Assembly (NCBI RefSeq): GCF_002198115.1
Contig: NZ_NGNR01000003.1
Span: 367,546 to 431,545 of the forward strand
Direction of reading: 5' to 3'
Length of the DNA stretch: 64,000 nt
DNA from: Robiginitalea sediminis
Lineage (GTDB): Bacteria; Bacteroidota; Bacteroidia; Flavobacteriales; Flavobacteriaceae
Part shown: positions 53,737 to 60,520 of the stretch, piece after piece
Layout of the letters: the number at the start of each line of letters is the position of its first letter
Position numbering within the stretch: the stretch's first letter is position 1
The notes under the pieces: model-generated
What the model saw: only the letters and a program-made list of their open reading frames with translations
What the model was told of the DNA's origin: nothing
Databases searched by the model: none
Program-made: the position numbers and the translations under genes

Positions 53737-55164
53737 TTATCGTTTCAAGGCAAAGTAACCCCGGATGATCTGTTGCTGCCTTGAGATGGCCTCAAACCAA
53801 TACACGGTGGAAGGCAGGGGCCTCCCGTTTAGTTTCCCGTCCCACCCCTGGGTTTCCGGATCCAGCTGCAGGATCAGGTTGCCGTAGCGGTCGAAGATAT
53901 GGATGGAAGCCATTTGGGCGTCCTGAATGTCTTCCGGGGGCTCGTATTTCCACAGATCATTGTAGCCATCATTATTGGGGGTGAAAAAGGCCGGGAAATC
54001 TGCTGCGCTCAGGCGCCGGGTAAGGGTTTTTTCACTGACGAAACAGGCATCCCGGTCCCTTACGTAAACCGTATAGGTGTCTAACGGGAGACCTGTAAAT
54101 ACAGGAGAGGTCTGGAACCCGCCATCGGGGTCCAGGGCGTATTCGAAATCTCCCTCGCCGGCTACTTCCACCACGATGCGCAGGCCATCGGGCTCCCGGG
54201 TAATCGTGGCCCCGTTTATTTCCGGGGGACGGGCCTCCACCACTTCAAAATCCCTGAGGATATTGCACACGGTAAACTCGTTCAGGGAGCCCACCAGGTT
54301 GTAGACTTCAAGCCGGTAGGACCCGGTTTGGGTGGCTTCAAGGATGTTTTCCGTACCGATGAGGGTTTCCTGTCCGCCAGGGCCCAGGCGGTACCAATTG
54401 TATCCGTCCGCCAGACCGGGGGCCGATATCTCCCGGCTGGTCTCCCCGGGGCATAGGGAAAAGCGTTCGGGGAAGCCCGACACGGTGGGCTCATGGAAAG
54501 AGCAGTCTACCAGGGAAGCCCCGGTGGTAAAACGCTGGGTCGGGCAGGTTCCCGGGGCGGGACCCAGGCGGTTGTATGGCGTGATACTCACGTAGATGTC
54601 TGTTTCTGTGGGGAAATTACCCGGGGGGTTAAACGTCAGGCGGTTCCCAACGTCCCTGTTGTCCAGGATATCGGTGCCTCCGGGGGTGGTGCCCACACTG
54701 ATGCGGTACCCCGTGGCCAGGGGAGCATAGGCCCAGGTAAGGGCGTCGTTTACCGGGTATCCAGTGGCCCCTTCTGCAGGCTCCACCAACCGGGTACACC
54801 CCGGAGGCGAAGGAAAAGGTGCAGTGCGGAAACTCCAGCCGGGGCAACTCACCTGGGAGCCGTCCGAACGGATCAGGATAAAACTCAGGTATACCACCGT
54901 GTCCTCGGGCAGGCCCACTTCCGGGGTATAGGAAGTAATAGGGGAGGAGGTGCGGTTGGTGAGGATATCCACTCCTCCCGGGGTAGTACCTATGGAAACG
55001 ATAAAGCCAGTAGCTGTCCCGGGGGCGGTCCACGAAATGGCGGCATCCACGGGGACATTCTGTTGGCCGTCTGCCGGAAATACGGGCCTGGGGCAGCTCT
55101 GTCCCTTGGCAGAGAACCCCGCCAGCACCAGCGCAAAACACCATAAAACACCCTGGCACTTCAT
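53737..55164 (-). CDS. T9SS type-B secreted protein with FN3-like repeats
   Basis: The 475-residue protein has a signal peptide ([21 protein letters not shown]), two FN3-like repeats of about 90 residues (each with [17 protein letters not shown] and a [15 protein letters not shown]-like strand) and a central Ig-like part. The end carries the gliding-motility-associated type-B sorting domain: [55 protein letters not shown], and RGYFALKR. It is exported by the type IX system and kept at or released from the cell surface. Adhesion or matrix role is likely but not shown. It follows a longer paralogue with only four bases between. Confidence 0.9.
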
Positions 55165-55168
55165 TCCC

Positions 55169-56899
55169 TTACCGTTTTAAAACAAAATGTCCGTGGATCT
55201 CTCCTCCATTGCGGTCCACCGCCCTGAACCAGTAGTTATTAGGGGGGAGTGGCCGCCCGTTGACCGTTCCGTCCCACCCCGGGGAATCCGGTCCTATTTG
55301 GGCCAGCAGGGACCCGTACCGGTCAAAAATGAAAATTTCCCGAACTGGGTTGAGGCCGGATTCCGGAACGATGTACTGCCACCGGTCGTTGGTGCCGTCC
55401 CCGTTAGGGGTAAAGAACTTGGGAAAGCCCTCCACGGTCAGGTCCGGGGTTACCACTACCTGGTCTGAACCGCATCCGTTCTTATCTCTCACATGGATGG
55501 TATAGGTGTCCAAGGGTAAGTTCTCGAAGCGGTTACTGTCCTGGTAGGGCCCGGCAGGATCCTTCAGGGCAAATTCGTAGTCCCCGGAACCGGAGACCTC
55601 GGTGGTAATGCTGATTACGCCTACCCCCAGACGGACATCGGTATCTCTTATTTCCGGGGCTTCCGAGGCGGTAACCCGGAACTCTGCGGAGGACGCGCAC
55701 TCAAAGGCGCCGGAAGGGCCGGAATAGCTCCTGTAGGCCTCGTACCGGTACAATCCCTCTCCGGGCACTTCGAAATCCTCGGTCTCGGCCAGCAGGCGCT
55801 CCCTGCCCGGGCTGTCGATGATATACCAACGGTACCCGTCCGCATCTCCCGTGGCGCTCAGGGTGGTCACCGCATCCCCCAGGCAAATGCCCACAAGCTC
55901 CGGGAAGTCGATTTCAGGGCGGAGGTCTACCAGTTCCCCCGTGCCCGGGTCGAAATACGGACCGCACCCCAGGATGGTGGAGAAGGTCTCCTGCCCGCAG
56001 CCTATGGCTTCCCCGGCCGTATTGAAGGGGATTATCCGGATATAGTAAATCCGGTTGGGCTCAAAGTTGATCACATTGGTGAGGTTGGTAAAAAAGCGCA
56101 CATTGTCCAAAACGTCATTGTCAAAGGGGGAGGTGCCGATGGAAACGATATAGCCATCGGCCCCGGCAACGGCCTCCCACTCCAGCACAGGGGAAAGGGG
56201 GACATTGCTTTCCCCGTTTACCGGGCTGACCATTTGTGAACACAGCGGCAGGGTCGCCAGGGGCCCGGTGGTGAATTGCTCTTCCAGGCAGGCATCCGCA
56301 TCTCCGTTGTCGTTGTAGGGGACGATGCGCACGTATATAGTTGTTTCGGCCGGGAAATCCGCAGGCGGGTTATAGCTCAGGACATTCCCCACGTCGGTCA
56401 GGGGGAGGATTTCACTGCCGCCCGGGGAGGTACCGATCGCCAGGCGGTACCCGCTTGCCGTAGGGCTGTAGGACCAGTTCAGATTGGAGGCCACCGGGAT
56501 ATCCGTACTCCCGTTGACCGGGCTTCTCAGGGCTGTGCACGGCGGTGGGAGGGTTACATCCTCCGTAGTAAAGCTGAAGGGGGCACAGGCGATATCCGGC
56601 TGGTTCAGAAAGAGCAGGTAGAGACTGACGTACATCTGGGTATCGTCCGGCAGGCCGAAGGGAGGGGTAAAGGTCGTGGCCGCACCTACCGTGGTCAGGG
56701 GCAGGACCTCGTCTCCGCCCGGGGTGGTACCAATGGCGATGCGGTATCCTGTAACCCCTTCCACCGCTTCCCAGCTAATGCTGGCAGAAACGGATACACC
56801 TGTACTTCCCGGCAGGGGAGACAGGATGGCGGGGCATTGCTGGGCTGCCGTATGGAGCCCAAAAAGCAGCCCGGCGGTACATAGCAATTTTTTAAACAT
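55169..56899 (-). CDS. T9SS type-B secreted protein, longer paralogue
   Basis: From the ATG at 56899 (MFKKLLCTAGLLFGLHTAAQ) the product has 576 residues. Three FN3-like repeats follow the signal, each with the GYRIAIGTTPGGDEVLPLT-type strand, then a domain with conserved Cys and Trp, and a type-B CTD (FPKFFTPNGDGTNDRWQY, EIFIFDRYGSLLAQIGPDSPGWDGTVNGRPLPPNNYWFRA, GHFVLKR). The type IX translocon exports it. The repeat number differs from the neighbour (three against two), consistent with duplication and loss or gain of a repeat unit. Both are likely one transcript. Confidence 0.9.
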   Translation of the reverse strand: MFKKLLCTAGLLFGLHTAAQQCPAILSPLPGSTGVSVSASISWEAVEGVTGYRIAIGTTPGGDEVLPLTTVGAATTFTPPFGLPDDTQMYVSLYLLFLNQPDIACAPFSFTTEDVTLPPPCTALRSPVNGSTDIPVASNLNWSYSPTASGYRLAIGTSPGGSEILPLTDVGNVLSYNPPADFPAETTIYVRIVPYNDNGDADACLEEQFTTGPLATLPLCSQMVSPVNGESNVPLSPVLEWEAVAGADGYIVSIGTSPFDNDVLDNVRFFTNLTNVINFEPNRIYYIRIIPFNTAGEAIGCGQETFSTILGCGPYFDPGTGELVDLRPEIDFPELVGICLGDAVTTLSATGDADGYRWYIIDSPGRERLLAETEDFEVPGEGLYRYEAYRSYSGPSGAFECASSAEFRVTASEAPEIRDTDVRLGVGVISITTEVSGSGDYEFALKDPAGPYQDSNRFENLPLDTYTIHVRDKNGCGSDQVVVTPDLTVEGFPKFFTPNGDGTNDRWQYIVPESGLNPVREIFIFDRYGSLLAQIGPDSPGWDGTVNGRPLPPNNYWFRAVDRNGGEIHGHFVLKR

Positions 56900-57016
56900 T
56901 TCCTTCGGTCCAGGAGGGGTAAAGTACGAAATAATCCGTAAATCGGCCCCTGGGTACGACAAGTGGCAGGGCTTTGAAGGTGAACGGTTTACCCGATGGG
57001 GAAGGCCGGGTAAGCC

Positions 57017-58777: not shown

Positions 58778-58878
58778 ACGGAAGGGTTTTAGGAGCTTCT
58801 TTCCTTAGTTGACGAAGAATTGCGTAATTTGTTACAGGTAACCACCTAAAGCGCCTCGTTGTGTCCGAAGAAAAACTC

Positions 58879-59943
58879 ATGTCCAAAAAGAAGCCGACTT
58901 TCCCGGTCTGCCCGGCCCTGGACGCGTATCTGGACCAATACAGCAGGAAGATTGAAATCCCGATTTTTTATGAAGACCTGCTGCGGTTTGCGGGTTCTGT
59001 GGTGGTTTATGACGACAGGGGGGAGGATACCCTCTGGATCCGGGTATATTACTCAGACACTGAACGGAGGGAGATCGATGAAAGTCTTAAAAAGGTGTAC
59101 TCTATCCTGCACTCGGACGGGAGCGACCACACTTTCCAATACCTCAATGTGGATGCCGTAGATTACTGCACGTTTGGGAATTCCAAGCCCTTCCGGATCA
59201 AAGTGCGGAACATCCTGAATGACAACTTCACGTATTTCTACGTAAAAAAGGCGGATGCCTCCCGAATCTATGGGTTGGAACTGGAGCACCTCTTATCGCC
59301 TTATAACCTGAACTTTCTGGTATACGGCAACACCCTTATTGAAGAGCATATCGCAGGTATCCCCGGCGATGTCTTCATCAAGGAAATGCTGCCGGATTGC
59401 AGTGCCTCGGAAAAGGCACAACTGGCCAAGGAATTCGTGAAATTCAACGAGAGGTGTATGATCCGCCTGCTGGGGGACATGCGTTCCTATAACTACGTGA
59501 TTGTCCCCATGCACGATTTCGACCATGTGGTGTACAAGATCCGGGCCATCGATTTTGACCAGCAGTGCTACGAGGGCAAGCTCAAGATTTACCGCCCGCA
59601 ATTCTTTAAGGAAAACAACCCCATGGTAGGTCTGGTGCGTGACCGCCTGCTCCGGGATTCGGTGGACCAGTACAAGGTGGAGGAGCGGTCCTTTGTGGCC
59701 AAGCGCATCCTGAGTTCCCAACGGCGGATTGGTAAATTGATCTCGATTGCCAAGTCAGATACCATCTCCACCCCCGAGAACGTGGAACAACTCAAGAGTG
59801 ATATCTACCAGCTCACGCACGATGTGCACTTTAAGAAATGCCGGTGTATGGGGGATATCCTGGAGGTAGCCCTCGATTTCGTGAAGCGGAATTACGAGGA
59901 CGTCAGCATGAAGCAGATTATTGAAAAGCGTATCCGGATATAG
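58879..59943 (+). CDS. Orphan kinase-fold-like cytoplasmic protein
   Basis: From the ATG at 58879 (MSKKKPTFPVCPALDAYLDQ) the product has 354 residues; a GTG at 58861 adds six. I do not know the family, but the order of marks suggests an aminoglycoside/choline-kinase-like fold: YVKKADASRIYGLELEHLL (Lys123/124 and Glu135 as beta3 Lys and helix C Glu), NTLIEEHIAGIPGD as the hinge, LLGDMRSYNYVI (Asp200 and Asn205) as the catalytic loop and IRAIDFDQQ (Asp225/Asp227) as the metal-binding DFx site. The N-terminal 110 residues are extra. No signal peptide. Function is inference only. Confidence 0.75.
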   Translation: MSKKKPTFPVCPALDAYLDQYSRKIEIPIFYEDLLRFAGSVVVYDDRGEDTLWIRVYYSDTERREIDESLKKVYSILHSDGSDHTFQYLNVDAVDYCTFGNSKPFRIKVRNILNDNFTYFYVKKADASRIYGLELEHLLSPYNLNFLVYGNTLIEEHIAGIPGDVFIKEMLPDCSASEKAQLAKEFVKFNERCMIRLLGDMRSYNYVIVPMHDFDHVVYKIRAIDFDQQCYEGKLKIYRPQFFKENNPMVGLVRDRLLRDSVDQYKVEERSFVAKRILSSQRRIGKLISIAKSDTISTPENVEQLKSDIYQLTHDVHFKKCRCMGDILEVALDFVKRNYEDVSMKQIIEKRIRI

Positions 59944-60001: not shown

Positions 60002-60520
60002 ATGAAGACCCTTTTTCGTTTGGGACTACTTGTCCTGTTCGTTGTTTCCTGTAACCCGAAACCCGCCCCGGAACCGGACCCCCAGGCCGAAGCTGCTGCC
60101 TGGCAGGAGGCTAGGGAGGCGGCCTTGGCTGAGGTAGAGGCCGCCAATGCCGCCATTACCTCCCTCAGCAGGGAAGGGCAGTTTGAGGCTGCCGGGGCCT
60201 ACTTCGCCCCGGATGTTATACAAATTATTACTGGCCAGCCGGAGATCCGGGGGCGGGAAGCCTGGATTGCTGCCCAGAGGGCCGCGGCCGAAATTGGGGA
60301 TTGGAGCCTGGAATTGGAAGTCCTCGACTTCGAATTTTTTGGTGACCATGCCGTGGAACGCGGCAGGGGTGTCCAGACTTTTGAAGCCAATGAGAACAGC
60401 CCCATCCCCTCCATGCAATTGACGGGGGACTACATGGTCTTGTGGCAGAAGACCGATGAAGGATGGCAGATCCGCTACGACTATGTGGTGGTGCAGCCGC
60501 CGGCCGGGGAGGAGGGATAG
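60002..60520 (+). CDS. NTF2-like (DUF4440/SnoaL) lipoprotein
   Basis: The 172-residue product has a lipoprotein signal (MKTLFRLGLLVLFVVSC; anchor Cys17) followed by a Pro/Ala-rich linker. The mature domain has the DUF4440 cone fold: EAREAALAEVEAANAAITSLSREGQFEAAGAYFAPDVIQIITGQPEIRGREAWIAAQ, then strands ending WQKTDEGWQIRYDYVVVQP. Many such proteins have a pocket but no defined activity. A strong terminator follows. Confidence 0.87.
   Translation: MKTLFRLGLLVLFVVSCNPKPAPEPDPQAEAAAWQEAREAALAEVEAANAAITSLSREGQFEAAGAYFAPDVIQIITGQPEIRGREAWIAAQRAAAEIGDWSLELEVLDFEFFGDHAVERGRGVQTFEANENSPIPSMQLTGDYMVLWQKTDEGWQIRYDYVVVQPPAGEEG

Follow-up and report, generated by a model that had tools for sequence, protein, structure and literature searches.

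The described kinases most like the protein considered here are those of the PI3K/PI4K class (PF00454; VPS34, p110 and PI4KIIIbeta), which were its best structural matches among those listed. When the sequences are aligned by eye, the KHGDDLR of VPS34 falls on a K-x-x-D-x-x-R pattern that follows strand 3 in the family described here, and the GVGDRHLDN ... HIDFG of VPS34 falls on LLGDM[R/H]xxN ... IDFD; IDF[G/D] is thus common to both, although the family has DFD rather than DFG. The His of the HxD motif is absent from VPS34 (GVGDRH) and from the family alike. Eukaryotic-type Ser/Thr kinases, in contrast, have HRD, where our protein has Leu198-Gly199-Asp200, with Gly199 and Asp200 the same in 180 of 180 distinct sequences. 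APH and choline kinase have a kinase fold with the catalytic Asp and Asn and a second Asp in the same order as here, but the family differs from them in having Leu in place of the HxD His and in giving no Pfam match. HipA-like kinases (PF07804) have an Asp-x-His-x-x-Asn catalytic loop in common with part of the family. The DxH motif of this loop belongs to PIKK-type kinases, and it is also found in the dehydratase domain of the LanM protein CylM, a bacterial domain that has the fold of lipid kinases but is not clearly similar to them in sequence (available text of PMC4550811). Our protein resembles CylM in being bacterial, in its predicted lipid-kinase-type fold, in the lack of clear sequence similarity and, in some family members, in the DxH motif; it differs in having neither a cyclase part nor a lanthipeptide synthetase Pfam domain.

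A second system enters the comparison through gene order. The gene bshA encodes the first enzyme in the synthesis of bacillithiol, a protective thiol. As reviewed for Firmicutes, the pathway comprises BshA, BshB and BshC only, and the cysteine-adding activity of BshC had never been shown in vitro as of 2015 (available text of PMC4360819). The presence of the pathway genes has been reported for Bacteroidetes, and the production of N-methyl-bacillithiol for Polaribacter sp. MED152 (available text of PMC6282198).

The kinase-like gene lies in a stretch of 64,000 nucleotides from Robiginitalea sediminis, here called the window. The reading frame at 58879-59943 on the forward strand is intact and was judged a real ORF. 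On re-reading, the coordinates, the frame and the stretches EEHIAGIPGD, LLGDMRSYNY and IDFD given in the original prediction proved correct. At the codon matching position 58861, the 80 close relatives have ATG in 65 cases, GTG in one (the nearest, L031) and another codon in 14. Since 66 of the 80 have a start codon there, the gene probably begins at GTG 58861, six codons before ATG 58879. The protein of the closest named relative, R. aestuariiviva, is 89% identical.

The protein had been described as an orphan that matches no known family, and for the named families searched this holds. The best Pfam E value for the protein was 0.15, which is not significant; NCBIfam gave no match, and neither the protein nor the family profile found a match among PDB sequences. 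When 25 diverse members were scanned against Pfam, no family was named, the single match (LOH1CR12, 0.00064) being taken as chance. The PF00454 profile matched neither the protein, which differs from PI3K/PI4K in being a single-domain protein of 360 aa with no significant profile match, nor any of the 25 members; a search of the window's genome with it gave only one match elsewhere, on another contig (C1, E 0.09). LanM/LanC Pfam domains were likewise absent from the protein and the 25 members, and HipA_C (PF07804) from the protein, the 25 members and the window's genome; this and the lack of a profile match separate the family from the HipA-like kinases. Sequence searches found no relative of the kinase in plasmids, phages or viral contigs. 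Our search of the open PMC literature found no paper on the family: in the available text of PMC1887533, on Bacteroidetes signature proteins, the word kinase is absent and none of the listed accessions could be linked to the gene, and the available texts of PMC12817932 and PMC9586298 contain nothing on it.

As a statement about distribution, on the other hand, "orphan" does not hold, as homologs are widespread. Of the 299 Flavobacteriaceae genomes sampled, 234 carry the gene (200 of the 249 that are at least 90% complete), and 231 of these 234 gave a single match. The order sample yielded homologs in 49 of 196 genomes, and the profile search of Bacteroidota that had been proposed as a check yielded them in 99 of 395 genomes of a phylum sample, other classes included; one of the 99, G702, has fragments only. 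The gene is widely kept in Bacteroidota and is missing in some lineages. The protein would thus be a conserved enzyme, present in nearly 80% of sampled Flavobacteriaceae genomes, that is named by no curated family searched. G564 has two diverged copies (L199 on G564:C3 and L200 on G564:C31), both with Lys123, Glu134, Asp200, Asn205 and Asp225; in G702 the fragments (L201, on G702:C1) are two, short and interrupted by stops, apparently a decayed copy.

To score conservation, 185 rows were aligned: the sequence of the window with 80 from close loci, 78 from distant ones and 26 from the order sample. Five genes occur twice among them, so that 180 distinct sequences are represented. The catalytic residues singled out for such a check, Asp200, Asn205, Asp225 and Asp227, are the same in all 180, as is Lys123. 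The same is true of Asn101, Pro104, Asp126, Arg129 and Gly199 and of the residues so marked in Table 1. Two landmarks of the original prediction need correction. It had named Lys123/124; Lys123 is invariant, but Lys124 is found in only 115 of the 180. It had also named Glu135, and residue 135 is Leu: the acidic residues of helix C are Glu134 (Glu in 178 of 180, Asp in two) and Glu136 (Glu in 179, Asp in one). Residue 102, in the loop resembling a phosphate-binding loop, is Ser in 143 of the 185 rows and Thr in 42. Position 202, two after the catalytic Asp, corresponds to the His of DxH in PI3K/PI4K and is Arg in 147 of the 180, our protein included, and His in 33. The His set comprises all 27 loci from other classes and six from the window's class; because all other-class loci carry it, His is probably the older state as judged from the alignment. 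The family thus adds to the bacterial proteins with a predicted lipid-kinase-like fold one in which His and Arg differ naturally at the DxH position. Residues 232-246, which follow the DFD motif, are likely to form an acceptor-binding loop.

Table 1. Positions in the window of the kinase-like gene, its conserved segments and other genes mentioned in the text
Feature	Position	Strand	Remarks
Kinase-like gene, probable full extent	58861..59943	+	GTG start, 360 aa; residue numbers counted from ATG 58879
FGNSKPFR (99-106), resembling a phosphate-binding loop and joining strands 1 and 2	59173..59196	+	Conservation; strands 89-97 and 105-111 in the model
From Lys123 in strand 3 to the end of helix C (127-139), with Glu134/Glu136; K-x-x-D-x-x-R	59245..59295	+	Conservation and model
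Hinge EEHIAGIPGD, residues 155-164	59341..59370	+	E155, H157 and G160 in 180/180
Catalytic loop LLGDMRSYNY, residues 197-206 (Asp200, Asn205)	59467..59496	+	D200 and N205 in 180/180
Metal-binding IDFDQ, residues 224-228 (Asp225, Asp227)	59548..59562	+	D225, F226, D227 and Q228 in 180/180
Post-DFD segment EG..YRPQFFKEN, residues 232-246	59572..59616	+	Y238, P240 and N246 in 180/180; low model confidence
Small lipoprotein-like DUF4440/SnoaL protein	60002..60520	+	Just downstream of the kinase gene
NA37 nucleoid protein, pRiA4 ORF3-like protein and COX15/CtaA	60717..63380	-	Block present in 72-75 of the 80 close loci
Large secreted-looking protein with repeated domains	53737..55164	-	Related to the next, same cluster
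Large secreted-looking protein with repeated domains	55169..56962	-	Adjoins the preceding

Two AlphaFold models were examined. That of the protein itself, built with 49 close sequences, was weak (pLDDT 53). That of an 81%-identical relative, L043, which served as a consensus-like query for an alignment of 81 sequences, was better: it had a pLDDT of 76.4 and a pTM of 0.76, against 43-55 for the four others produced in the same run. Within this best model pLDDT fell below 50 in the catalytic loop (199-203) and after the DFD motif (226-244). In the model of L043, a strand at 89-97 leads through the FGNSKP loop to strands at 105-111 and 116-124 (with Lys123) and to a helix at 127-139 (with Glu134 and Glu136). 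There follow strands at 146-149 and 152-156, the hinge, helices at 163-173 and 176-196, the catalytic loop with Asp200 and Asn205, and strands at 205-213 and 216-224 that end in IDFD. This moderately confident model of a relative describes a two-lobed fold of kinase topology, strands 1-5 and helix C followed by a helical lobe. Lys123 lies in strand 3, Glu134 and Glu136 in helix C, Asp200 and Asn205 at the place of a catalytic loop, and Asp225 and Asp227 where strand 8 ends, as expected of a kinase.

Searches with the L043 model point in the same direction. The 50 Foldseek matches listed against the PDB are all kinases or pseudokinases, seven of them at E values of 0.001 or less, with low TM-scores (0.20-0.36 among the matches listed). 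When Foldseek's best 1000 PDB chains were aligned with VIA-align 2, the 50 entries listed were all PI3K/PI4K, at Z 8.3-11.3; some of the entry titles name inhibitors only, the chains being named PIK3C3. The best of those listed was VPS34 (7rsj; Z 11.3, rmsd 4.6, 273 residues aligned). The weak model of our own protein also placed VPS34 at the top in VIA-align 2, at Z 10.0, the matches listed being PI3K/PI4K and two PIKK entries. Middling Z values are common with VIA-align 2, according to the tool's own warning; we nevertheless hold the PI3K/PI4K likeness to be true because the list is uniform and the motifs agree. Matches in a library of viral folds were mostly protein kinases. The original prediction had proposed a comparison with APH, choline kinase and HipA; a kinase fold was indeed predicted, but none of these three appeared among the best 50 Foldseek matches or the best 50 of 1000 in VIA-align 2, where PI3K/PI4K were found instead; any of the three may still be close in fold. 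Profile-profile comparison by hhalign gave p 0.78 against PI3K and p 0.29 against HipA, both within the range of 37 control families with no relation to the kinase (p 0.025-0.95). The method has no power here, since PI3K and HipA likewise fail to find each other by it (p 0.61). Model topology, both structural searches and the invariant residues together support a kinase fold, in which, as a prediction, we have very high confidence; neither result that would have refuted the original prediction, a model without a kinase fold or a lack of conservation in the named residues, was obtained. The protein, as modeled, is PI3K-like in fold yet not a member of PF00454.

In classes other than that of the window (Bacteroidia), 27 kinase loci were examined from the 28 kinase-bearing genomes of these classes in the phylum sample (G699, of family f52, was left out). 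By tblastn, 19 of the 27 loci, from seven of nine families, have bshA directly upstream of the kinase gene in the same orientation, at a gap of 12-162 bp; in one of the tandem loci, L192, the called ORFs share 4 bases. Two of the tandem bshA copies were scanned against TIGR03999 and scored 552 and 577 bits (cut-off 273.7). The eight loci without the tandem belong to f33 (two) and f52 (six), and in one genome of each (G494 and G710) bshA was found on another contig. A gene for an MBL-fold hydrolase is convergent with the kinase gene in 21 of the 27 loci. When ten neighbor families were compared, bshA was adjacent in seven families and the convergent MBL hydrolase in four; the rest were adjacent in none. 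Two of the MBL hydrolases were scanned against NCBIfam (an example is L255:6166-6837, reverse strand), and their best likeness was to glyoxalase II, at 84.7 and 79.6 bits, far below the cut-off of 200.8.

The two genes also meet once in Flavobacteriaceae in another arrangement. In genome G143 bshA is directly downstream of the kinase gene on the same strand, with a gap of 531 bp that contains no ORF of at least 60 aa; the opposite gene order suggests that this adjacency arose separately. The upstream tandem is confined to one part of the phylum. In 52 kinase-bearing genomes, picked mostly for completeness, bshA is present in all 52; the place of the kinase gene was listed for 45 of these, and the two are side by side only in G143, G508 and G642. 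Another 157 loci, of which 26 were covered to 1.5 kb and the rest to about 5 kb on either side of the kinase gene, have no bshA in that range. The window's genome has both bshA and bshC, on another contig than the kinase gene.

Co-occurrence with bacillithiol genes gives a signal that agrees with a role in bacillithiol makers but is weak, because BshC is nearly universal: it is present in 289 of 299 genomes of the family sample and 384 of 395 of the phylum sample. Among family genomes at least 90% complete, BshC is missing in none of 200 with the kinase vs 4 of 49 without it (Fisher p 0.0014), and all 99 kinase genomes of the phylum sample have BshC (p 0.07), p-values that overstate the signal because the genomes are related. 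The three family genomes with the kinase and without BshC are 84, 66 and 88% complete. Conversely, 58 family genomes have BshC and no kinase gene; bacillithiol in general therefore does not depend on the kinase. The kinase is unlike bshA, bshB and bshC in Pfam and NCBIfam scans; its tie to them is the tandem with bshA in seven other-class families and G143.

The reading that we put forward, to which we give somewhat less than an even chance as a whole, is that the protein is an active PI3K-like kinase working in bacillithiol metabolism beside BshA. The link to bacillithiol is itself tentative. The protein would stand alone as a single-domain kinase, its catalytic fold like that of the PI3K/PI4K lipid kinases, and would hold ATP-Mg between a small lobe (the FGNSxPF loop and Lys123, itself held by Glu134/Glu136) and a large lobe (Asp200, Asn205 and Asp225). 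The gamma-phosphate would be passed to an acceptor hydroxyl, and candidate acceptors would be proteins of the pathway or its sugars (GlcNAc-malate, GlcN-malate or bacillithiol). More specifically, the kinase might phosphorylate such a sugar or protein so as to activate the BshC step, or its product might be a phosphorylated derivative of bacillithiol, a proposal that in this precise form we think improbable. To our knowledge, no kinase step of this kind has been described in low-molecular-weight thiol metabolism; such a reaction, if it occurs, would be the first. The bshA tandem gives a concrete lead into the pathway, the last enzyme of which had yet to be reconstituted in vitro at the time of the 2015 review (available text of PMC4360819).

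The same catalytic apparatus would also serve in a general housekeeping kinase that has no part in bacillithiol metabolism and acts on a protein, as PIKKs and HipA do, or on a small molecule, the bshA tandem then being an inherited gene order in one clade. We regard this as possible, if somewhat doubtful. In the window's class the kinase gene has changing and mostly unrelated neighbors, including genes for a TonB receptor, CorA, cation efflux, FtsW/RodA, a Mur ligase, DprA, an aldolase, a flavodoxin and DUF2130, and no common theme is seen among them. The kinase is also highly conserved (over 38 loci that have both genes its median is 78.7% and that of the ABC ATPase 76.9%, a comparison biased by the choice of loci for their kinase likeness), and other parts of the other-class gene order are partly kept as well, the MBL gene being adjacent in four of nine families. 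Against mere inheritance of gene order stand families f40, f56, f58 and f68, where bshA is adjacent across short gaps and the MBL neighbor is either not adjacent or not found, and the second bshA adjacency in G143.

Both readings take the kinase to be active. It might instead be a catalytically altered member of its class, either sensing ATP in the manner of a pseudokinase or transferring AMP or another group instead of phosphate. The original prediction, which had correctly noted that Leu-Gly-Asp replaces the HxD motif, had allowed for a pseudokinase-type regulator, and the missing HxD His and the Arg at the DxH position in most members, our protein among them, fit such a role. Leu-Gly-Asp in place of HxD is, however, normal in the PI3K class, where VPS34 likewise lacks the His, and is therefore no mark of a pseudokinase. 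The Lys, the catalytic Asp and Asn and the DFG-type Asp are kept throughout the family and the helix-C Glu residues nearly so, and 33 relatives retain DxH. Judging from these residues the kinase is in good likelihood catalytically active, and an altered member is unlikely. The small-molecule kinase role that was proposed as the other option is possible.

That the closest folds among the matches listed are PI3K/PI4K might suggest an inositol-lipid kinase. Of the 299 Flavobacteriaceae genomes, however, only two encode the inositol-phosphate synthase PF01658, and G234, one of the two, gave no match to the kinase; the synthase was not found in the window's genome either. Inositol lipids are unlikely as a general substrate because the synthase is so rare, and we consider a PI3K/PI4K-type lipid kinase very improbable.

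The remaining proposal concerns the ABC-2 exporter genes that had been reported as a pair divergent from the kinase gene. The pair is indeed there: in the close loci it points away from the kinase gene and the NA37 gene points towards it. With three loci that lack a kept anchor ORF (L193, L198 and L201) set aside, the exporter ATPase gene adjoins the kinase gene or is separated from it by a single gene in 61 of the 80 close loci and the permease gene in 59, but each is so placed in only 1 of 36 distant loci. The nearness of the exporter therefore reflects gene order and not function, which makes a regulator of the exporter scarcely credible. The NA37 gene is near the kinase gene in 75 of 80 close loci and none of 36 distant loci.

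Other genes near the kinase may be mentioned. The DUF4440/SnoaL gene just downstream is present at the kinase in 3 of 117 anchored loci, the window included, and so may be a late insertion. In three loci of the window's class (L240, L249 and L252) the protein encoded directly upstream of the kinase, at a gap of -8 to 10 bp, belongs to one cluster; the two that were scanned, in L240 and L249, are DUF2130 proteins. The two large secreted-looking proteins listed in Table 1 share a similar C-terminal end, FFTPNxDGxND..., which we take to be a T9SS sorting-domain motif.
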